Position numbers and translations under genes: made by a program. Positions 9,501 to 28,307 of a stretch of 28,648 nt of DNA are shown here, one piece after another (within the stretch, counting starts at the first letter, position 1; the number at the start of each line of letters is the position of its first letter). The stretch is from a virus: the IMG/VR virus record IMGVR_UViG_3300045806_000031, positions 1 to 28,648 of that record, one strand, 5' to 3'. Below the pieces are notes generated by a model, which was not told where the DNA came from, made no database searches, and was given only the letters and a program-made list of their open reading frames with translations.

Positions 9501-12500
9501 GCGCCGTGCGCGCCATCATACCTTCAATGAAGTGCTGAACATCCTTTGGTAGAGACTTCAGCATCATGTAAGCCGCAACCGAGTGCTTCGCCAACGTGTC
9601 CGACCGCACACTATCGTGATGCTGAAGCGCAACCAAGCTCTTCAGCGCAGGCACCAGTTTGCCCCACACCTGTGAGATATGACTGTTCGTCATCCATCCG
9701 AGTGCGTTCTTGCGCCATCCTTCCTGCACGTTGAGAATTTTACCCTTGGCGTCGGCCATCACCGTGTCGGCCATGCGCGCATAAATCGCGTTCGTGCCGT
9801 TGGATATCTGCTTGAGCCCTGCGTCATTGATCTGACTGGGCGTCTCGTGGTTCTCTTGCATCAGGCCGTGCGCTGTGTCGATCACCGCGTCAAACGCCGT
9901 CATCGCGCGCGGCGTCATGCCGAGCATACGGAACACACTATACTTGAAGGCGTTCCACATGGATGTGAGCCGCGAACCGGGCGGTGGCTCTTGGCTCATC
10001 AAGAACTTCTGAAACGTCGGATTGCTGAACGCTTCAGCCACGAACTCTTTTACGTTTGTGAAACCGTAGTGGTCCCCATCCGAGTTGGCTTTCAAATGGT
10101 TGAACAACCGCGTCATTTCGACCGCGTACTGACCGCCCCGGTTCAGCGCGTTAAGCGTAGCGGCGTGCGTCATTTCATGCAGTACGGAGTTCTCTACCTG
10201 ATCCGGCGCATGGATGCCGATGCTGTCTTCGTTGCGCGCGTAGGACGCTGCGACGCGCCCGGATGGGTTCCTCGCCTTCAGATACTCATAATCGCGATCA
10301 CCAGGACCACCCAGGCGCACGCGCGAGTTCACGCCCGCGTCCCTCAGTATGCGCGCCAGTTCCCGCACAGCGGCGTTACTGCCGTTGCGCGTTAGATAAT
10401 CGAGGGTGCCCTTGCCGTTGCGCATACCATCCGTCTCATGGATGAGATACGCGAGGTTCTTGTCGTGCTGCGTGACCACACCGCTCGGGCTCATCAGCGG
10501 GATCGGGCCGGAACCAGTGTGCTCCCGGATGGTGTCCATGAGGCCGCCATCGCCCTGTACATGGTTCTCATAGTCCTCGATCAACTTCTGTGTATCTGGA
10601 CCGACGTTATCTGATTGATTGTCTGTGAGTTCAGAACCAAACATATTCGTCTTGACTGATTTGAAGCCTGACAGGTCGCCCTTATCCATCAGCTTGGCGT
10701 GACCATCCATCGCGTCTAGCACGTTCTCGTGCCGCGCCAACTCAGCCTGAAACGCCGCCTGCTTTGCTTCGATGGGCTGGCGGAAGGTCTTGTATAGCTC
10801 GTCTGGTGTGCGCGCGGGCTTGACTGGCTTTCCCGCCGCTGTCGCCTTCGCGGCGTTACGCGCGTCTGTATTCGCAGCCGTCGCGGCGTATTTCTTAAAC
10901 TCGGGACTTTCCTGTGTCTGATCGTATTTCAGGACTTTGCTCGCCTTCAGTTGGTCAAGCAGATCATACGCCTTCGACAGGCTGTCACGAATGGGTTGCG
11001 ACGGGCGCGGTCCCTTGGATGTATGGGCCTCGACAGGCTTCGCCGCAGCGACGGGCGCTGGGGTCTCGACAGGCGTCTCGACAGCCTGCGCTGCCTTCGC
11101 TGCCTTGGCTTCCGCTTGGTTCTTGAACTTTGGCTTCGCTGGGGTCTCGCCAGCCTGCGCTGCCTTCGCTGCCTTGGCTTCCGCTTGGTTCTTGAACTTC
11201 GGCTTCGCTGGGGTCTCAGCAGCCGCATCGGCCTTGACCTTGGGCGCGCGGGTTTTCTTGATTTTCGCGACCTCCGCAGGCATTTCCGGCGTCGGCATGT
11301 TGCTGTTCGCCGGCTCACTGTAGTGGACCTGATCCTTAGTTAGGTCCACGGTAGGCATGAGCTTCTGCTGGGCGACCTTTCCGTCCACCATGTCCTGAAG
11401 GTTGGATATATCCTTGTTAATCCCCTTCAGACCGGGGGCCTTACCTGACGCCAACCGTGAATTGAGTTGATCCGCTGTCGAGTTGACCAACTGCATGAAG
11501 TCAGGATCAGCCGTGATCTTGTTGCCCAACTGACGAGCGCGTTCGATCATCGCCGACTTATCGGCGTATTTGGTCCCGCTCAAATCAACGGCTTTCGAAG
11601 TACCTGACGGCCTGTTTGCCGTCAGGTACTTCGGATCAATGGTGCCTCCATCCAGCACGCCGAGCTTTTCCGCCAGCGCCGCCACCTTGGGGTGGCCGGT
11701 GCCGCCTGACGCGAAGCTCGACTGAAGGCTGTCCGCCAGCCGCGTCTTCAGGTCCTCCTCGGATGTTACACCATCCGTGATGCTCGTCGGCAGGCCCTTG
11801 TTCTCAGCGCGTACCTGACCCACGTCAAACGGCGGCGTGGTTGACGTGATCGGCTCTTCGAACGGTAGCGTGGCTTGCGGCGGCGGTGCCTGTTCAGCAG
11901 CAGGCTTCACCACTGGTTCTTCAGGAACCGGCTGTGATTGCGGCGCGGGCGGACTTGCCTTCGCGATCTTGTTCCGCTCGGCCTGAACGTCCTGCAACGT
12001 CTTCGTGAGCGGGTCAACCGGCGCGGGAGCCGCTGGGGGAGCCCCTGGCGCTGTCGGCGGCGTTGGCTCTTCGATCTGGCGCGGACCCACGAAGTCGGGC
12101 GGACCCGACTTCTCTTCAGGATGCACCAGCGCGTTGGGGAGCCCCGTGCGCGAGTTCAGTTCGTTGATCATGGCGTCATGCAGCATGCCATCGCCGGGCT
12201 TCAACTGGCCTTCGTTGCGCACTTGCGTGAACTGGTCAACCAAGTTCGATAGGTGCGCTGACGGATATTGCCGCACCATGCTAGCCAACGCCTGAGGCAG
12301 CGACCCCAGGTCTAGCTGGCCATCAGGCGTCGTCGTGGCTCCACCATACTGCTTCAGCAGTTGCGCTTCCTGTTCCGCCGCCGTCTTCGCCGGAACGTCG
12401 CCAAGGTTGAGCGCGCCTTGCTGACCCTGGTTGAAATCAACCGGGGGCGTTGGCTCTTCGATCTGGCGCGGACCCACGAAGTCGGGCGGACCCGACTTCT

Positions 12501-13776
12501 CTTCAGGATGCACCAGCGCGTTGGGGAGCCCCGTGCGCGAGTTCAGTTCGTTGATCATGGCGTCATGCAGCATGCCATCGCCGGGCTTCAACTGGCCTTC
12601 GTTGCGCACTTGCGTGAACTGGTCAACCAAGTTCGATAGGTGCGCTGACGGATATTGCCGCACCATGCTAGCCAACGCCTGAGGCAGCGACCCCAGGTCT
12701 AGCTGGCCATCAGGCGTCGTCGTGGCTCCACCATACTGCTTCAGCAGTTGCGCTTCCTGTTCCGCCGCCGTCTTCGCCGGAACGTCGCCAAGGTTGAGCG
12801 CGCCTTGCTGACCCTGGTTGAAATCAACCGGGGGCGCTACAGGTGCGACAGGCACGTTCTGGGGCGTTTCCACCTGAGGCGTCGTGCCGTTGAGCACCTG
12901 ATCAACGCCTGTGGAAATGGCGTTGTTGTCCACCTTGGCGATGGGCGTCTTCGCCAGCGCGTGGAACGCGCCGCCGAACACCGCGCCCTGAAATGCGCCG
13001 CCAAGCGCCGCCTGCACGACGCTGTTCGCCTTGCTGGCGAAGTCCCTGTTGGGATCGCCCATCTGGCCAGTCAGGTACTCCGTCGCCGCGCCAACGCCCG
13101 CCTGTGTGGCCGCGCCGGTCGCCGCGCCCGTGAAGATGCGGTTGAGCAAATCCCCACCTACGCCCTTGGCCAGCGCGCCTTCGATCTGGTGCGGCAGGAT
13201 GGTCTGCAACGCCGCCTCGGGCACACCCAGACCCAGCGCCTTGGCCGCGCCGCCCTGCGTCAGGTTGCCATCATAGTCCGTTTGGCGCTGGACATTTGCG
13301 CCAACACTCAGCGGGTAAGCCGCTAGGCCGGTCCCCAACAACGATCTCGCGCCCGCCGTCGCCAGCACACCCGCGCCCGCCGCAGCTTCTTCCGGTGCGC
13401 CGATAGCTGAGACAGCGCCGATCCCCAGCATCGCCGCCAGGGATGGCGCACCTTGCGCGATCTGATACCCCATACCCGCTGGCGACCATGGATGGTCCTC
13501 CAAATCCTGACGTGCGTAGGTGGCGGCAGTAGCGCGCTGCCCCGCCGCGTAATCAGCGGCGCTCTGCGCTGTTTGATCCGCGCCTACCAGCTTCGCGCCG
13601 GCCTGCACAGCGCTGCCCACTTGACTGAGAGCGCTGTGAAAGCCGGACCCGAGACCCGCCGTCAACCAGTTGCCTGTACCGGACGCCTGCGGGACATCGT
13701 TGCCTTGCGGGCCTGTGTCCTGAGACGGCGGCAACTGACCGGCGTTGAGATAATCTTGAAAGCTGGGAAGAGCCAT
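6568..13776 (-). CDS. Giant PLxRFG/polyvalent-type virion protein with HExxH motif
   Basis: This 2402-aa protein is the largest in the window. Residues about 60-290 are Ala/Gly-rich with several hydrophobic, possibly membrane-active stretches. Two identical 129-aa units cover about 314-571, followed by Pro/Ala/Lys-rich linkers with a 23-aa repeat (near 850-905) built on AKPKFKNQAEAKAAKAAQA. A zinc-metalloprotease-like HEMTH motif lies at 1200-1204, followed by YGFTNVKEFVAEAF, a pattern seen in phage polyvalent proteins. The C-terminal 500-600 residues (including SPLINQFMGFQIRLTEKMYR and a long AGTLGLP hydrophobic stretch) resemble proteins annotated as PLxRFG-domain. Such proteins are thought to be packaged in the head and ejected with the DNA. 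Here that role is inferred from size, position between neck and lysis genes, and family. AAGGCGGC precedes the ATG. Confidence 0.88.
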   Translation of the reverse strand: MALPSFQDYLNAGQLPPSQDTGPQGNDVPQASGTGNWLTAGLGSGFHSALSQVGSAVQAGAKLVGADQTAQSAADYAAGQRATAATYARQDLEDHPWSPAGMGYQIAQGAPSLAAMLGIGAVSAIGAPEEAAAGAGVLATAGARSLLGTGLAAYPLSVGANVQRQTDYDGNLTQGGAAKALGLGVPEAALQTILPHQIEGALAKGVGGDLLNRIFTGAATGAATQAGVGAATEYLTGQMGDPNRDFASKANSVVQAALGGAFQGAVFGGAFHALAKTPIAKVDNNAISTGVDQVLNGTTPQVETPQNVPVAPVAPPVDFNQGQQGALNLGDVPAKTAAEQEAQLLKQYGGATTTPDGQLDLGSLPQALASMVRQYPSAHLSNLVDQFTQVRNEGQLKPGDGMLHDAMINELNSRTGLPNALVHPEEKSGPPDFVGPRQIEEPTPPVDFNQGQQGALNLGDVPAKTAAEQEAQLLKQYGGATTTPDGQLDLGSLPQALASMVRQYPSAHLSNLVDQFTQVRNEGQLKPGDGMLHDAMINELNSRTGLPNALVHPEEKSGPPDFVGPRQIEEPTPPTAPGAPPAAPAPVDPLTKTLQDVQAERNKIAKASPPAPQSQPVPEEPVVKPAAEQAPPPQATLPFEEPITSTTPPFDVGQVRAENKGLPTSITDGVTSEEDLKTRLADSLQSSFASGGTGHPKVAALAEKLGVLDGGTIDPKYLTANRPSGTSKAVDLSGTKYADKSAMIERARQLGNKITADPDFMQLVNSTADQLNSRLASGKAPGLKGINKDISNLQDMVDGKVAQQKLMPTVDLTKDQVHYSEPANSNMPTPEMPAEVAKIKKTRAPKVKADAAAETPAKPKFKNQAEAKAAKAAQAGETPAKPKFKNQAEAKAAKAAQAVETPVETPAPVAAAKPVEAHTSKGPRPSQPIRDSLSKAYDLLDQLKASKVLKYDQTQESPEFKKYAATAANTDARNAAKATAAGKPVKPARTPDELYKTFRQPIEAKQAAFQAELARHENVLDAMDGHAKLMDKGDLSGFKSVKTNMFGSELTDNQSDNVGPDTQKLIEDYENHVQGDGGLMDTIREHTGSGPIPLMSPSGVVTQHDKNLAYLIHETDGMRNGKGTLDYLTRNGSNAAVRELARILRDAGVNSRVRLGGPGDRDYEYLKARNPSGRVAASYARNEDSIGIHAPDQVENSVLHEMTHAATLNALNRGGQYAVEMTRLFNHLKANSDGDHYGFTNVKEFVAEAFSNPTFQKFLMSQEPPPGSRLTSMWNAFKYSVFRMLGMTPRAMTAFDAVIDTAHGLMQENHETPSQINDAGLKQISNGTNAIYARMADTVMADAKGKILNVQEGWRKNALGWMTNSHISQVWGKLVPALKSLVALQHHDSVRSDTLAKHSVAAYMMLKSLPKDVQHFIEGMMARTAQNIDPSKTWAEHTWLHGSKNSAVYQREVLAANNEWRKLATNPKALEAYQATRASNEADRLRHQAYFARSMMHSQGLDGQYDGFRSDPFAEYEKNRALHDDPHRALQFWQGVTDSQKQGLTKLRGELSGARDVHDNIVKSEEKRRAGERSNGVKVDDAAYKLRSAILKDAMNERTRLTRNGDAIKSLTDDFDAADKRAQEGTYFHLNREGSHFVSGHISVDPTGEINEKNAEDLSKRMKDAGFNNAAIMKGGENTNVYVRVSDAAQMEKLRQLFLKAQDDGVLAKDKEVTAGEAGTTNIYQAISPVWMKRLIEAARSAQPDIPEGASAETEVELNKAYHQQIHDLTRTMLNMTPENSLSRLYAHRENVQGFSPHMIESFGKSSIANARGTSRLSLADEMAQSMRDIKDQVRANNGNRDLGPNQILGGAQAASELIMREKNRTTAPPENFMDGVRQMTHTFQVGSSPAYVLTLMTQIPTLSLPELAKTHGFANSALALGRAAPLAIKVLRAVMSGPDATRFGMRDETLLKAGLSQKDVDFLMTQAMRGDFHHSSYTQAMAGHGPLSHGQLGQVTAAANAMGLYSEMMPRILTALAARDLYEKAPNKANGMTLHDFVSDKVSQSQMDWAPSGNARQTTKQGMFGSMSPLINQFMGFQIRLTEKMYREVADLTGKGRTPEERAQAGKFLLGHAAAVAMFAGTLGLPMLSTAAAVYDRLKDLITGGDSSDVQASYRTFLTHTFGKQTGEIIARGLPRAFGADFDHVGEGRILPGSTFVNALVEKRSMEDAEKDWLKSEAGSATGFLANITFAARDFGNGDYMNGLIKMAPEILKSPTEALRIANRGFVDKNGAKLPITANAFDIAMKVLGIDPAKEAEYDEVKRTATGLNTMRQLREKNITQHLVLALNRGDTASEQYWLHQSQDYQREHPGLMPPAALLGRTMQKSQRQSAQAQSIGMPIGVSLKDITARGMVGFGNFHNK
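11082..11240. repeat. 69-bp tandem repeat (23 codons) inside the giant virion gene
   Basis: Two near-identical copies with a period of 69 bp encode the Lys/Ala/Gln-rich unit AKPKFKNQAEAKAAKAAQA plus a few residues. A partial, diverged third copy follows at the low-coordinate side (VETPVETPAP on the protein). The region is probably a charged, flexible or helical linker. The in-frame period keeps the giant protein open. Confidence 0.85.
12059..12836. repeat. Exact 387-bp tandem duplication inside the giant virion gene
   Basis: The block beginning near 12062 is repeated from 12449 with no difference that I can find, giving a 387-bp (129-codon) period. The predicted protein shows two identical consecutive 129-residue units running from VDFNQGQQGALNLGDVP to PDFVGPRQIEEPTPP. 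A short extra match (about 4 bases and 10 bases) extends past the ends of the units. Exact identity implies a very recent duplication, active homogenisation, or an assembly artefact. Confidence 0.93.
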
Positions 13777-22492: not shown

Positions 22493-25039
22493 CTATCTGA
22501 CGTGGTACGATGACGCAGCCACTATCTGGCGTCCAAAACTGCGTTGCTGTCGTTGCCTACCATACTTCTCTTCTCTTTGCATACCTCTGTGGAAGTATCG
22601 ACATAGATATCCGAAGCCATCACCTACGTGACTGTACTGGTTCTTCTCGGGCTCCGCGCCCTTGAGAGTGTCTTTCTTGGTGTCGACGGCGTAGCGCCAG
22701 CCGCCCTTGAGCGCCCGGATGAGGTCCACGCAAGATGGGTCAATCTGAAGGTTGGGAAACCCCTCTGTATATCCAGATGCGTAGAAGTCTATCGCATCCA
22801 GTCGCAGCGGTAAGCGGTTGTTAGTCTCGATGACTACTCTGAAGTGTTTCTTGAACTCGTCTACCACCGTGCGCTCGTCGGTCTGCGTTCTATTCGCAGC
22901 GGCCGGATCAGGCGCGATAACGACTTCCTGAATGTTGGGGAACCGGATGCGCAGCATGGGCACGAGCCGCTCCTTGATCATCCGCGCCGCACCCATGCCT
23001 TGCTGGCAAAGCTCCGCGAACACCTTCAGCCGCCCGTCGAAGTCCAACTGGCCCAAGAGCATGGCCGACCCTGTAATGCCTGGATCAAGCCCGACCACCA
23101 GTGGCAGGAACGGGTTGTAGACGAGCGACCGCTTGGCCACGTGCGCATCCGCGCGGAAGCCTGACACGACGGACTTGCCGGCGATGCTGAAGCCCCATTC
23201 GGCGTCAACGAACTGTCGAACCCAGGCTTCGCTCTTTCCTTTGGCCGCAGACACATAGTAGCGTCGTCCACCCAGGGGTGTGGCCGCCGACCCGCCCGGA
23301 AGGTTCTCGAGGTTCTCGGCTTCATCGCCCATCCCCGAGGGCTGGTGGAAGTAGGTCGCGTTGGGCAACTGACCCTCGCGCGCTGTGACCTCCGCGTCGT
23401 ACTCCAGTTGGAGCACTCTATCCGCGAAGCCCTTGCGTACTGTGTACTCTCGCGAGTTATGCAGATAGTCGAACCACCAATTGTCTTCCGTGCTTGGGTT
23501 GGATGAGCCCCACATACCCCAAATCGTTACGGGCGTGCCGTCAGGTTGTTTGTAACGCCCTAACCGCGCTGAGAGAGCATCCACGATGGCCCGTGGTATC
23601 TCAACGAACTCATCCAAGATCGCGAAGTTTATTTCGAGCGACAGCACTCGCGAAATATCTTCGGGTGTATCGAGAGCGCGGAACATCACTATGCATTCGA
23701 TGTCGCCGAACCTCAGAGTGAAAATCTTGTCCGTGGCGTTCCAGTGACCGGCTGTACCATCCTTGAACCAGTAGCCCCAGGACACGAGGGTGGTGTCCTT
23801 CAACTGAGGCATCGTGTTTGATGACCAAAATGCCTTGCCGTTTCTTCTAACGTAAATAATGTGCGACGGAACTTCTACGCACCGGACCATACCATCGTAG
23901 TCTACTTCGTAAAAGTCATCTTTATTCTGCGGCTGGGGCCGCGAACGACCATCTGTATACAATGTCACACAATGCAACATCGTCTCAGTATCGTGCAAAG
24001 TGCCTTGCGGATACGTATAAACATCTGATCGCACTCGCGTCGTGACCACAGCCATACTTCCTGAGCGAAAAATTATTTCTTGAAGGTCATCCGCCAACTG
24101 TTTCGAGGCCGTCCACATACGTGTCGTATCTCGCGTCGTCGTCGCACGATGGCCGTCCCCGACCACATAAGCGTCCACCAGCGCCTTCAAGTGGTCGGCA
24201 GGTAGGTTTTTAGCCCAGGCAGGTATGTACCGCCCTAGCTGTGTCCCTAGCGGCCTCAGCCGAGGAAACCAGCGGTCGAATACGTCATTCCGCCGCAACT
24301 GAAAATTAACGCCGCCCCCGCCCGTATCGAACTCACCCCACTCGAACCCAGCCGCCGTCAGCACGTCGCGCACATACTCCTTGTGCTTCGTTTGCGTGAT
24401 TGTGACGTAGCGCCGCCGCCCCACCTCCGCGACACTCCCCTCAGCTAGCCAGAGCCCCAGAAACTCAGCGTCGCTGACGCTGAGCCCCTGGGCATCGCCA
24501 CCGCACCACTCCGCTGTCGTCCTAAATTCGCGGTTGGTCTTGCCATGCATGTCCCGCGCCGGCTCGAACCTGTAAGGACCACGCTCTTTCGTTCGCCCAT
24601 TGACCGTCGCTGTCCACATATTGTGGTCGGGAGTGACGAGATAGTCCAAGTTCTGTTTGCGACAACCGAGCATTTTACCCTTATACGGAGCCTCATGCCT
24701 GAGTGTTGGCGTAACGAAAACGGTCTCATCACCCACCAGAGACGCCACCTTGTCGTCGTCAACCAAGTCTTTGAATAGCCTCCACCCCCGCTTCTCGGTG
24801 AGTATCTCCGTCTCGTCGTCGAAGCAGTTTCGCACGATGACGGCGCGCGTGCGCTTGATCCCGTCTGGGCTCGCAGCCTGTAGGCTCGCCATGAGAATGA
24901 GTTTGAAGAACAGACCTGTGGTCTTCCCAGACCCAACAGGTCCGACAATCCACGAGTAGAACAGATCACCAATGCGGTGATCCTTAATGAATGACCTGAC
25001 AGTCGGTGGCGGCGTATAGCTGACTATACTAGTTGCCAT
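22493..25039 (-). CDS. Terminase large subunit (TerL) interrupted by an intein
   Basis: This 848-aa frame contains a 337-aa intein (residues 72-408); the spliced protein would be 511 aa. Extein motifs are clear: Walker A GPVGSGKT (33-40); the ATPase motif RAVIVRN joined to TMPQLKDTTLVSW after splicing; Walker B FAILDEF (D476, E477); and an RNase H-like nuclease with VVGLDPGITGSAM (D652), VIAPDPAAANRTQ (D711) and NQYSHVGDGFGYL (D807). The enzyme cuts and pumps DNA into the head. The start overlaps the end of the upstream 50-aa gene by 11 bases, and its binding site is weak. The portal follows 12 bases after the stop. Splicing must occur for activity because the intein breaks the conserved RNT motif. 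Confidence 0.95.
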   Translation of the reverse strand: MATSIVSYTPPPTVRSFIKDHRIGDLFYSWIVGPVGSGKTTGLFFKLILMASLQAASPDGIKRTRAVIVRNCFDDETEILTEKRGWRLFKDLVDDDKVASLVGDETVFVTPTLRHEAPYKGKMLGCRKQNLDYLVTPDHNMWTATVNGRTKERGPYRFEPARDMHGKTNREFRTTAEWCGGDAQGLSVSDAEFLGLWLAEGSVAEVGRRRYVTITQTKHKEYVRDVLTAAGFEWGEFDTGGGGVNFQLRRNDVFDRWFPRLRPLGTQLGRYIPAWAKNLPADHLKALVDAYVVGDGHRATTTRDTTRMWTASKQLADDLQEIIFRSGSMAVVTTRVRSDVYTYPQGTLHDTETMLHCVTLYTDGRSRPQPQNKDDFYEVDYDGMVRCVEVPSHIIYVRRNGKAFWSSNTMPQLKDTTLVSWGYWFKDGTAGHWNATDKIFTLRFGDIECIVMFRALDTPEDISRVLSLEINFAILDEFVEIPRAIVDALSARLGRYKQPDGTPVTIWGMWGSSNPSTEDNWWFDYLHNSREYTVRKGFADRVLQLEYDAEVTAREGQLPNATYFHQPSGMGDEAENLENLPGGSAATPLGGRRYYVSAAKGKSEAWVRQFVDAEWGFSIAGKSVVSGFRADAHVAKRSLVYNPFLPLVVGLDPGITGSAMLLGQLDFDGRLKVFAELCQQGMGAARMIKERLVPMLRIRFPNIQEVVIAPDPAAANRTQTDERTVVDEFKKHFRVVIETNNRLPLRLDAIDFYASGYTEGFPNLQIDPSCVDLIRALKGGWRYAVDTKKDTLKGAEPEKNQYSHVGDGFGYLCRYFHRGMQREEKYGRQRQQRSFGRQIVAASSYHVR
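23816..24826 (-). mobile_element. Intein with LAGLIDADG homing endonuclease in TerL
   Basis: The inserted protein begins with Cys72 (block A CFDDETEIL) and carries block B (LDYLVTPDHNMW, with the T-P-D-H motif). Two LAGLIDADG-type motifs follow: FLGLWLAEGSV (E200) and LVDAYVVGDGH (D295). Block F is RCVEVPSHIIYVRRNGK, and the intein ends at Asn408, followed by Thr as the +1 extein residue. The usual penultimate histidine is serine here (WSSN-T). Both endonuclease motifs keep an acidic residue, so homing activity may survive. The insertion splits the invariant R-N-T motif of the terminase ATPase, a classic highly conserved homing site. Confidence 0.93.
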
Positions 25040-25944: not shown

Positions 25945-26487
25945 TCAGTTGGGGCGCGTGTGTCCCCACCATTTCCGGTTCTGGTAAGTCTTCCGCGAAG
26001 ATATTAGCTCTCTCCCTCTCACCCCCTGACGTATTCGGTAGCGTATAGCGTCAGGTGTGCGTCCGGCACGAGCAGCGATTTCGTGTATTGTAAGCATGTC
26101 ACCCTCACCTACATCATACTTTTTTCGTGTCAACGTGTGTGGTGCGGCGTACAGGTCATCCCCTGACCATCCAATACTTTTGCGATACGATATGAGCTGC
26201 GATGATGCATCCCCTGTAGGGGCTCGCTTTACGTTGAGCGCCGGGTGTGCTTCACGAATAAGTTCGGCCTCCCGCAGAGCCACTTGGTCCCTAGGGAACG
26301 TCTTCAGTGGGATGAAGTCGAACCCGTCCTCCCCATAGGTGTCCCAGGCGGCTTGGAGCAGCCTAGGCCCTGAGCCCCTTCTGAGCGCGGTACGATGCGC
26401 GGCGAACCGAGACGCGAACGACATGCGCGTCCCTCCCACATACTCCTCACCAGTTGGGCAACAAACAATGACGTAAACACCACACAT
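25945..26487 (-). CDS. GIY-YIG homing endonuclease with HTH domain
   Basis: This is a 180-aa protein. The N-terminal 90 residues are a GIY-YIG nuclease: GVYVI (3-7), EYVGGT (15-20), the catalytic arginine in SFASRFAAHR (R27), the glutamate in LREAELI (E75), and ALNV (N85). Residues about 132-157 form a helix-turn-helix-like DNA-binding segment (TIHEIAARAGRTPDAIRYRI), as in phage homing endonucleases. The start is ATG 26487 with GGAG nine bases upstream; an in-frame TTG at 26502 is less likely because the domain begins right after the ATG. It is the first leftward gene after the divergent promoter region and lies directly before the small-terminase-like gene. It looks less GC-rich than its neighbours. 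Confidence 0.9.
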   Translation of the reverse strand: MCGVYVIVCCPTGEEYVGGTRMSFASRFAAHRTALRRGSGPRLLQAAWDTYGEDGFDFIPLKTFPRDQVALREAELIREAHPALNVKRAPTGDASSQLISYRKSIGWSGDDLYAAPHTLTRKKYDVGEGDMLTIHEIAARAGRTPDAIRYRIRQGVRGRELISSRKTYQNRKWWGHTRPN

Positions 26488-26511
26488 GATTTTCCACTCC
26501 AAACTCTAAAA

Positions 26512-26679: not shown

Positions 26680-26700
26680 AACGGGACGTCGTGTCCCGTT
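26680..26700. promoter_or_regulatory. Operator-like palindrome 1 (AACGGGAC-N5-GTCCCGTT)
   Basis: Two perfect 8-base half-sites with spacer GTCGT. It lies nine bases upstream of the -35 of the candidate rightward promoter. The same half-sites recur at 27137-27157 and, with one mismatch, at 28287-28307. The shared sequence, symmetry and 5-base spacer argue for a dimeric DNA-binding protein. Confidence 0.75.
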
Positions 26701-26709
26701 CCCTAGCAT

Positions 26710-26737
26710 TTGACAACAAGTAGAGTTCTGCTATTGT
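26710..26737 (+). promoter_or_regulatory. Candidate rightward promoter
   Basis: A perfect -35 TTGACA at 26710-26715 is followed by a 16-base spacer and -10 TATTGT at 26732-26737. Transcription would begin near 26744, about 35 bases before the 110-aa gene. A palindrome lies just upstream of the -35, and a leader hairpin starts at or next to the predicted transcription start. Confidence 0.65.
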
Positions 26738-26744
26738 TGATGGA

Positions 26745-26764
26745 CCGAAGCAACGGCGCTTCGG
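26745..26764 (+). other. 5'-leader hairpin of the rightward transcript
   Basis: CCGAAGC and GCTTCGG form a perfect 7-bp stem with a 6-base loop (AACGGC) almost exactly at the predicted transcription start. A hairpin at the very 5' end can protect an mRNA from degradation. The Shine-Dalgarno (AGGA) follows five bases after it and is not covered. Confidence 0.5.
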
Positions 26765-26778
26765 CATAGGAACGCCAC

Positions 26779-27111
26779 ATGACAATGCACTCAAAAGAAT
26801 ACTGGTTGACGCCCGTCACCTTTGGCGACAATCTCGAAGACTTCAAACGTCGCGTCGACAATACTGTCGAGCAAGCGCTCTCGCTTGCTGATGGCGTCGA
26901 ATACAAGAAGGTCGGCGGCCTGAATTTCCTCAAGGTGGGCGCGCTCCGCTTGCAATGGTCGATCAAGGCCAAGCGCGCCACCAAGCCCGTGAAATTCAAG
27001 CACGTCAAAGAGCGTGAACCGGATATCTCTCACGCCGTCACGCAAGAGACCACCATCCCCAATTGGGAAGCGCGAATGAAGATTGGCACGCGGATGGTTG
27101 CCAACGACTAA
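26779..27111 (+). CDS. Unrecognised 110-aa rightward protein
   Basis: This protein begins MTMHSKEYWLTPVTFGDNLE, then carries LEDFKRRVDNTVEQALSLAD, GVEYKKVGGLNFLKVGALRL and a Lys/Arg-rich middle. The central part resembles a small alpha/beta fold rather than a membrane or virion protein, but I recognise no family. The ATG has AGGA seven bases upstream and the frame is free of competing long ORFs of better quality. It is the first gene of the rightward unit, between operator-like palindromes 1 and 2, and could be regulatory or an early function. Codon use appears similar to the rest of the phage. Confidence 0.75.
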   Translation: MTMHSKEYWLTPVTFGDNLEDFKRRVDNTVEQALSLADGVEYKKVGGLNFLKVGALRLQWSIKAKRATKPVKFKHVKEREPDISHAVTQETTIPNWEARMKIGTRMVAND

Positions 27112-27113
27112 AC

Positions 27114-27119
27114 TATAGT
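27114..27119 (+). promoter_or_regulatory. Candidate -10 element for the second rightward gene
   Basis: TATAGT (five of six matches to TATAAT) directly follows the stop of the 110-aa gene. No good -35 is present at 16-18 bases, so activation by a bound protein would be needed. Palindrome 2 lies about 18 bases downstream, close to where transcription would begin. Confidence 0.3.
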
Positions 27120-27136
27120 GTACTCTACCACTCGTG

Positions 27137-27157
27137 AACGGGACATTGTGTCCCGTT
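27137..27157. promoter_or_regulatory. Operator-like palindrome 2 (AACGGGAC-N5-GTCCCGTT)
   Basis: Perfect 8-base half-sites with spacer ATTGT, in the short gap between the 110-aa and 248-aa genes, 33 bases before the ATG of the latter. It would lie just downstream of the -10-like TATAGT. Half-sites are identical to palindrome 1. Confidence 0.75.
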
Positions 27158-27190
27158 CCACTTAACGTCCAACTTAACGGAGTTTATGTT

Positions 27191-27937
27191 ATGTCTGATC
27201 AAGTTGCTCACACACAAGAAGAACTTGTCGCTATCTCGATCAACACTCGCGCCTTGGTGGACAACGCCGCGACCACATATGACGTGCTCGTCAATGACGT
27301 AGCGGCGCGCTTCAAATGGGACACGGAAACGTCCATCGTCATGGATCTCATGGTTGCTCGCATCGCCTACGTGCTCGCCAAGGCCGCGAACGCCAGCAAA
27401 ACATCGAACGATGCGCTTCCTTCGTCCACGTATATCGACGCCGCGACGGCGATCTATGACAACGATAAGAAAGGTAACACCTACACGTCTCAACTCAAGT
27501 GGGTTAACCGCCTCCGCACGGCGGCGGGGTTCCCCTCCGAAAACCCGCGGGCCTCGGGCAACAAAAACCGCGGCGCTGACCGTAAGACGGAAGAGGCTCC
27601 CGCGCCTATCGCCAGCGCTACAGCGCCTATCGCCAGCGCTACAGCGCCTATCATCAAGCTTAAGGTGACGGAGGCTACCTCGATAGAAGACAATATCCAT
27701 GCGCTTGTCGCCGCTGCAAACAAGCTACTGAGCGAAAACGCTGGCACAATCCATGGTGCGCAGCGTGACTGTCTGGTGGCCATGATGACAGCGGGGCGCG
27801 TCATGGATGAGGCGTTGCGCCTCGAAGCACAGGCGGAAACCGTAACGGCTAAGAAGCCTTCCGGCAAGCGCCGCGAGGCCGTCATTGAGTTGGCGAAGAG
27901 GTTCAATTCCACGCCCGTTGCGGAACTCGCCAACTAA
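27191..27937 (+). CDS. Unrecognised 248-aa rightward protein
   Basis: This protein starts MSDQVAHTQEELVAISINTR. Residues about 1-110 are helical (ALVDNAATTYDVLVNDVAAR, then SIVMDLMVARIAYVLAKAAN). A flexible Pro/Ala-rich linker follows with two tandem copies of APIASAT (27601-27650, near-identical 21-bp units). A helical, basic C-terminus ends in KRREAVIELAKRFNSTPVAE. I recognise no family. The frame is open upstream to a GTG at 27134, but ATG 27191 has GGAG eight bases before it and the upstream part overlaps palindrome 2. The gene ends just before a strong terminator. A DNA- or RNA-binding or recombination-accessory role is possible but not shown. Confidence 0.8.
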   Translation: MSDQVAHTQEELVAISINTRALVDNAATTYDVLVNDVAARFKWDTETSIVMDLMVARIAYVLAKAANASKTSNDALPSSTYIDAATAIYDNDKKGNTYTSQLKWVNRLRTAAGFPSENPRASGNKNRGADRKTEEAPAPIASATAPIASATAPIIKLKVTEATSIEDNIHALVAAANKLLSENAGTIHGAQRDCLVAMMTAGRVMDEALRLEAQAETVTAKKPSGKRREAVIELAKRFNSTPVAELAN

Positions 27938-27945
27938 CCCACAAC

Positions 27946-27970
27946 GGCCCCGGCGAAAGCCGGGGCTTTT
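27946..27970 (+). terminator. Intrinsic terminator after the 248-aa gene
   Basis: An 8-bp all-GC stem (GCCCCGGC and GCCGGGGC) with a GAAA tetraloop is followed by TTTT. It begins nine bases after the gene stop. This is a textbook rho-independent terminator for the rightward unit. Confidence 0.92.
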
Positions 27971-27994
27971 CTCGTCAACTAGGATGTCGCAACC

Positions 27995-28168
27995 ATGTCG
28001 CACACGTTCAAAGACATAACCACCAGAGACCACACGCGCAAGTTGTGCGAAATCCTGGAAACCCGGCGTCGCCTTCAGGCCAAAAGAGAGCGGGATACGA
28101 TAACCAAAAGATTGCCGCCTGGGCATATTTATTTTAGGGGTCGTGTGGTAGAATACATTACCTTCTAG
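27995..28168 (+). CDS. Small basic 57-aa protein
   Basis: A 57-aa open frame starts at ATG 27995 (AGGA ten bases upstream) and reads MSHTFKDITTRDHTRKLCEI, then an Arg/Lys-rich helix (LETRRRLQAKRERDTITKRL), then PPGHIYFRGRVVEYITF. The sequence is credible as a small nucleic-acid-binding protein: an amphipathic basic helix followed by a short beta hairpin. It lies between the strong terminator and the three tandem terminators, and the triple terminators start eight bases after its stop, which fits a separately terminated unit. No promoter is obvious, so it may rely on read-through. Confidence 0.6.
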   Translation: MSHTFKDITTRDHTRKLCEILETRRRLQAKRERDTITKRLPPGHIYFRGRVVEYITF

Positions 28169-28175
28169 CTTATCA

Positions 28176-28264
28176 AGCCGGGCGCAAGCCCGGCTTTTTA
28201 ATTTAAGCTGGGCGCAAGCCTGGCTTTTTAATTTAAGCTGGGCGCAAGCCCGGCTTTTTCTTTT
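28176..28264 (+). terminator. Three tandem near-identical intrinsic terminators
   Basis: Three copies of a 30-bp unit each contain an 8-9 bp hairpin with a GCAA loop and a five-base T-run. Their stems begin at 28176, 28206 and 28236. Copy 1 has a perfect stem (AGCCGGGC/GCCCGGCT). Copy 2 has two wobble pairs (AGCTGGGC/GCCTGGCT) and copy 3 has one. The last ends in TTTTTCTTTT. The repetition should give near-complete termination. Confidence 0.9.
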
Positions 28265-28286
28265 GTCTTGGTTTCCCCTATTGGTT

Positions 28287-28307
28287 AACGGGACACCTTG
28301 TCCCGTG
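28287..28307. promoter_or_regulatory. Operator-like palindrome 3 (one mismatch)
   Basis: AACGGGAC-N5-GTCCCGTG with spacer ACCTT: the left half-site is identical to the other two palindromes and the right half-site differs in its last base. It lies about 23 bases after the last of the three tandem terminators and would control whatever starts to the right. Confidence 0.65.

Follow-up and report, generated by a model that had tools for sequence, protein, structure and literature searches.

Phage-specific palindromes before the early genes of HMO-2011-like podoviruses, probable landing sites of a phage-made control protein

Podoviruses related to phage HMO-2011 carry short interrupted palindromes before their early genes, and each phage has its own version of the palindrome. 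These repeats form a widespread and undescribed system and, judged from comparative sequence analysis, are probably the landing sites of a control protein made by the phage. A sequence-only reading of one such phage had proposed an undescribed regulon with symmetric half-sites for a dimeric regulator, and the comparative tests described here support the proposal: one relative (L007) has the exact palindrome, and other relatives have arms of their own in the same kinds of place. That the palindromes constitute a phage-specific regulon acting at the DNA level is held with good confidence.

Source of the DNA and phage identity

The window, which is the whole stretch of DNA analysed, comprises positions 1 to 28,648 of the IMG/VR record IMGVR_UViG_3300045806_000031 (G000 in the comparisons below), belongs to a bacterial virus and probably represents about half of the phage genome. 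Gene calls give a long leftward structural operon, with the terminase large subunit (which contains an intein), the portal, the major capsid protein and a 2402-aa virion protein. The rightward early region is short and has genes for proteins of 110 aa and 248 aa. The portal is 38% identical to that of Pseudomonas phage Rollin and 25 to 29% identical to those of HMO-2011, CRP and Rhizobium phages, so the phage is assigned to the HMO-2011-like podoviruses. HMO-2011-type phages are described as a dominant marine viral group (PMC9038755), and the text of that comparative paper covered by a term search has no mention of promoters or of such repeats.

The terminase large subunit gene (22493-25039, minus strand) has an intein-like insertion with a LAGLIDADG signature after ...RAVIVRN, and in that of L007 (3949-6315) a different intein-like insertion is placed elsewhere and interrupts the Walker A motif (GPVG/SGKT). 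The divergent gap that separates the structural operon from the first palindrome has a gene for a GIY-YIG homing endonuclease (25945-26502, minus strand), of which the gap in L007 has no counterpart. The gene of the 2402-aa virion protein includes, at about 12000-12690, a tandem duplication of about 387 bp with two nearly identical copies.

Palindromes of the window and of its closest counterpart

The palindrome AACGGGAC-N5-GTCCCGTT occurs in three copies in the last 2 kb of the window, two exact and one with one mismatch. A scan of the 28,648 bases with AACGGGACNNNNNGTCCCGTT, allowing up to three mismatches, returns exactly the three copies that the sequence-only reading had listed (chance expectation 0.11) and none in the leftward structural module, where none had been noticed; 0 of 100 dinucleotide shuffles of the window reach three copies. 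The spacer is partly symmetric, with R...T at its ends, and the site can be written as AACGGGAC(A/G)-N3-TGTCCCGTT, a 9-bp arm around a 3-base centre.

Site 1 (AACGGGACGTCGTGTCCCGTT, 26680..26700, plus strand, exact) lies in the divergent gap, 9 bp upstream of a sigma70-like early promoter, TTGACA-N16-TATTGT (26710..26737, plus strand), which scores 7.8 against a random median of 2.4 and a 90th percentile of 4.7; a near-consensus promoter had been noted at this place. The first early gene (26779..27111, plus strand) encodes the 110-aa protein, which has no known family and has homologues in L007 (103 aa) and G010 (91 aa). Site 2 (AACGGGACATTGTGTCCCGTT, 27137..27157, plus strand, exact) stands between the two early genes, within the 79-bp gap before the 248-aa gene as had been read, and the next start codon is 33 nt on. 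The TATAGT that had been noted beside it is not counted as a promoter, since it lacks a -35 and is found upstream of the site, and site 2 has no promoter of its own. The 248-aa gene (27191..27937, plus strand) is followed by three tandem terminator-like hairpins, read directly from the sequence, at the end of the early transcript (28170..28262, plus strand), and site 3 (AACGGGACACCTTGTCCCGTG, 28287..28307, plus strand, one mismatch, last base G) comes after these terminators, as had been claimed. No gene is called inside the window downstream of site 3, and any gene served by it would be outside the window.

The non-coding stretch after the early terminators also has a second repeated motif, ATCAATGGGTTA, at about 28340 and 28430 in the window and at about 820-840 and 440 in L007, which may be part of an origin or serve in packaging.

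When viral contigs were scanned for the exact palindrome, ten matched, and one of them, L007 (9,016 bases), is a relative; both copies in contig L015 lie at or in an insertion-sequence transposase, and the remaining matches are single copies. L007 has three copies of the exact palindrome, and its early proteins are 60% (110-aa homologue) and 53% (248-aa homologue) identical to those of the window. Its site 1 lies 9 bp before TTGACG-N17-TATAGT, the same gap as in the window, and its third site lies 25 nt before a start codon. Sites 2 and 3 of L007 precede genes that are not counterparts of those in the window, so simple inheritance in place does not account for the sites. In IMG/VR, neither the 110-aa nor the 248-aa protein by itself gave a match, and two-member profiles returned only L007 again. 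A host regulon was considered and rejected: an exact-pattern scan of bacterial genomes gave at least 117 scattered matches, which were taken as chance.

Each phage has its own palindrome

A portal search gave 80 related contigs; 20 of them, together with the window and Rollin, were read whole (22 contigs). When only exact arms of 7 or more are counted, 17 of the 22 contigs have a palindrome family of their own, with 3 to 13 exact copies each, and first-order Markov controls give 0. The architecture and the places are the same across site-bearing contigs, and the arms take at least 12 different sequences, which include AACGGGACA, GTGTTACA, TTTGAGAC, TGTGAACA, CTTGTTAA, AGATGAGA, TTTGTGACA, TTTGTGACG, GATTAACG, GTTGGGACA, TTTGCGACA, CGTCAGAT and AAAGGTAG. 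The spacer length is 0 to 7 across phages; G017 uses two lengths, 4 and 5, and in G013 the two arms meet in a perfect palindrome without a central loop.

The cultured phage HMO-2011 (NC_021864) has five copies of TTAGTCCG-N4-CGGACTAA, with mismatches allowed, all in the early region and before early genes (positions 58, 1259, 1924, 53876 and 54805). Pseudomonas phage Rollin (OR577172) carries AAAGGTAG-N7-CTACCTTT four or five times, grouped in a stretch without annotation (positions 2-496 and 61266), and G012 has two copies of AGTGAGAC-N3-GTCTCACT, with mismatches allowed. The complete-looking contig G011, which has a strong integrase match and several HTH_3 genes, has neither sites nor a member of the first-early-gene family described below; among 21 contigs, which may be incomplete, there are two integrase matches, and the stronger is that of G011. 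The same scan found no palindrome family in RHph_N3_19, CRP-212, HTVC033P and vB_Pun_Y3, and in CRP-1 a weak four-copy candidate that lies partly inside genes.

Position of the sites

In 16 contigs, 116 of the 139 sites are intergenic, and about 10% of the DNA is intergenic. The other 23 sites are in genes: 21 in genes of the same strand, and 2 in genes of the opposite strand, which are mainly structural. Two outcomes had been named in advance as contrary to a regulon, namely copies scattered through coding genes and loss of the palindromes in relatives that keep the genes. The first was looked for and did not occur, and neither did the second, as the gene-keeping relatives keep a site.

One site per phage lies in the divergent gap beside a sigma70-like promoter, and 12 of the 16 first sites exceed the 90th percentile of random positions. 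Non-first sites are mostly without a promoter (21 of 123 score as high as strong first-site promoters), and most sites are found between a stop codon and the next ribosome-binding site. The sites stand before early and replication-region genes, and those with a start codon within 60 nt precede it by a median of 22 nt (interquartile range 18-27). The distance from the first site to the -35 element varies among phages from overlap to 29 bp, so there is no fixed activator or repressor geometry, and the 9-bp spacing of the window and L007, tried as a fixed activator geometry, is not general. A spacer-orientation signal in the six sites of these two contigs was also discarded, being absent in most other phages, where orientation is mixed.

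At orthologous early genes the site occupies the same place, with arms particular to each phage. A site is kept at the AAA ATPase gene in 7 of 9 phages and at the DUF2201 metallopeptidase/VWA gene in 4 of 8, and the observed statistic for the sharing of sites at orthologues is 20, compared with a mean of 8.5 and a maximum of 18 in 2000 permutations. This concerted replacement of the arms at orthologous genes therefore points to a trans-acting factor that changes along with the sites. The pair G007/G009, tried as a clean swap of the first gene, was weakened as a case, since the early regions of the two have diverged throughout; the sites did nevertheless change in place.

A motif near AAGTAATTCTTTCC, or its complement, is present close to the first palindrome in the divergent gap of L007, G003, G009, G010, G017 and G019. 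It is nearly the same between phages, unlike the palindrome.

Candidate binder of the sites

In nearly all site-bearing phages, the first long early gene codes for a member of one undescribed family of about 160 to 290 aa. These proteins begin with a helical part, followed by a central motif resembling RTxEQ...ARxxWSRxxRxAG, a basic linker and a second helical part at the C terminus. Leave-out profiles, for which each member and its near relatives were removed before the search, recover most other members with E values of 1e-5 to 1e-15 (lowest 1.7e-15). With such a profile the 248-aa protein of the window reaches only E 0.06 and its L007 sister 2.9e-7, and the pair gives 3.7e-7 by profile-profile comparison. 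Members in G006 and G019 were found by independent matches, while the G017 member is supported by profile-profile comparison only, that of G009 is weak and the first gene of G007 has no family support. In further contigs, a family member has a palindrome 18 to 157 nt upstream.

These proteins fall in no Pfam or PHROG family and have no recognised DNA-binding domain. Two predicted models are all-helical (pLDDT 69 and 82) and gave no usable fold match, the best Foldseek E values being 0.11 for viral structures and 1.3 for the PDB; a VIA search of the models gave Z scores of at most 6.7, on a helical protein, which is within the noise for helical bundles. A missing fold match does not show a new fold.

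Apart from this family, no non-structural gene is common to nearly all of the site-bearing contigs, some of which are fragments with one to three early genes, and in most cases a member adjoins the first site. The comparisons make the product of the first long early gene, in the window the 248-aa protein, the best candidate for the protein that binds the sites. Both the 110-aa and the 248-aa proteins had been proposed as candidate regulators; the second is favoured, because its family is in nearly all site-bearing phages and homologues of the 110-aa protein are in only two.

Joint divergence of arms and first-gene proteins would fit G000/G001, G003/G004 and G007/G009. It does not fit G002, which has core arms in common with G003 and G004 and a first-gene protein only 24-29% identical to theirs. 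HMO-2011, G007 and Rollin have sites and no first gene recognised by the family profile. Because of these two observations, weight has to be given to an alternative, less probable but serious, in which the palindromes are DNA operators of another protein, either a host regulator or the product of a different phage gene, and the first-early-gene family is a mere neighbour; the candidate also has no known DNA-binding fold, as this alternative would allow. The nearly general presence of the family and its place beside the first site argue against it. Two further observations count against the favoured explanation, set out below: G019 has a family member and no recognisable site, on a contig that ends 392 nt beyond the gene, and some phages use two spacer lengths (4 and 5 in G017), which is unusual for a rigid dimer.

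DNA sites, promoter elements or RNA hairpins

Conservation is limited to the palindrome and a few flanking bases and is symmetric. An improbable explanation is that the palindromes are themselves elements of early or middle promoters, used by a polymerase that the phage modifies or encodes; each would then give a short leader to the gene that begins about 22 nt further on, in the manner of the N4 hairpin promoters or of T7-type promoters. Such elements could well be phage-specific and repeated, at a steady short distance from start codons and before early and replication-region genes, as the sites are. However, no directional element stands beside the palindrome and site 1 already has a sigma70 promoter; RNA_pol Pfam matches are 0 in 21 contigs, in a search whose controls also gave no signal, and the 2402-aa virion protein has no RNA polymerase match. 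The virion RNA polymerase of phage N4 uses hairpin promoters, which are likewise short inverted repeats in a podovirus early region and have a fixed 3-base loop, whereas the spacers of the present sites, from 0 to 7, are unlike a fixed hairpin loop.

It is more improbable still that the palindromes function in RNA, as intercistronic hairpins that a phage protein recognises in antitermination, translation control or mRNA processing. The location of most sites between a stop codon and the next ribosome-binding site, the two loop lengths tolerated in G017 and the different hairpin that L007 has at the place of site 2 of the window would agree with RNA hairpins. But the first sites are upstream of the promoter and outside its transcript, unlike RNA sites of the boxB/nut type, and where paired arm bases do not match, the gene strand shows A.C (21) more often than G.T (10), so pairing in RNA is not being preserved. 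Because conservation is symmetric, wobble pairs are not preferred, the first site is outside the transcript and the G013 site has no loop, a dimer site at the DNA level is favoured, and DNA seems the likelier target; the mixed spacer orientation in most phages also speaks against RNA.

It is very improbable that the palindromes are short repeats, selfish or promoting recombination, that have spread among gene junctions and regulate nothing, although the positions of sites 2 and 3 differ in part between the window and L007 and recombination between Corndog repeats is reported (PMC4351075), as concerted arm replacement at orthologous positions and symmetric conservation need a recognising factor and the first site is promoter-linked in nearly every phage.

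Proposed mechanism

In the favoured explanation, the palindromes would be double-stranded DNA sites for a phage-encoded, phage-specific dimeric regulator of early genes. One site, at the sigma70 promoter from which the first early transcript starts, would serve as operator, and at the internal sites, in the gaps between early genes, the bound protein would block or slow the host RNA polymerase along the operon, so that the early genes would be turned down together after the protein has built up. The likeliest binder, the product of the first long early gene, would then control the transcript that encodes it. If arms and protein do diverge together, this protein may silence a second phage of the same type and not phages of other types, and the divergence of arms between phages would fit selection to avoid each other's regulator.

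The binding of the sites by the first-gene product, with repression of early genes, is somewhat favoured on balance; the roadblock and exclusion steps are proposed with less confidence than this. A broader interpretation can be offered only tentatively: an undescribed all-helical DNA-binding family and 3 to 14 private palindromes would give a large, apparently non-temperate podovirus group both early-gene shutdown and the exclusion of phages with the same site type, which would be immunity without lysogeny.

Comparison with known systems

With a private site array at a constant position, the regulator can be sought by co-variation, and early-gene operons and the compatibility of phages may be predictable from the sequence. 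An undescribed protein family is also gained, the predicted binder, whose DNA-binding specificity appears to evolve fast. Compared with helix-turn-helix phage repressors, this candidate belongs to no Pfam or PHROG family, and its helical models gave no usable fold match.

Cluster K mycobacteriophages have SAS and ESAS repeats just upstream of the start codons of some genes, kept at orthologues; the SAS, which is asymmetric and 13 bp long, lies right at the translation start, and the ESAS part is an inverted repeat (PMC3203893). The present sites also precede the start codons of a subset of genes and are kept at orthologues. Unlike SAS, they are symmetric and upstream of the ribosome-binding site (the median of 22 nt before the start), and one of them is at a promoter.

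In Cluster A mycobacteriophages, such as L5 with its repressor gp71, an operator at the early promoter is accompanied by many non-promoter stoperators in gaps, which are 13-bp asymmetric sites, oriented with transcription and bound by a monomeric repressor of temperate phages; the consensus of each phage is its own and diverges with its repressor (PMC6550527). The present phages share with Cluster A the single promoter site, the many non-promoter sites in gaps and the phage-specific arms, and a roadblock at internal sites is favoured by analogy with the action of Cluster A repressors at operator and stoperators. Unlike stoperators, the present sites are symmetric and unoriented, and most of the phages appear to be without integrase.

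The nearest described case is the 17-bp palindrome TGTTCGG-N3-CCGAACA of Cluster O mycobacteriophages (Corndog), which has 34 copies, about one third of them inside genes, and for which a dimeric regulator was proposed, the function being unknown (PMC4351075). The present sites are of the same kind, in an unrelated phage group: interrupted palindromes in multiple copies per genome, with invariant arms and a variable centre within each phage, densest in the non-structural operon, without meaningful orientation, and in phages most of which appear to be without integrase. They differ from those of Corndog in their arms, in their number (3 to 14 copies) and in being mostly intergenic, with 23 of 139 in genes. 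New in comparison with Corndog are the variation of the arms between related phages at orthologous positions and the linked candidate regulator family, and the present sites may offer an explanation for the unexplained Corndog repeats.
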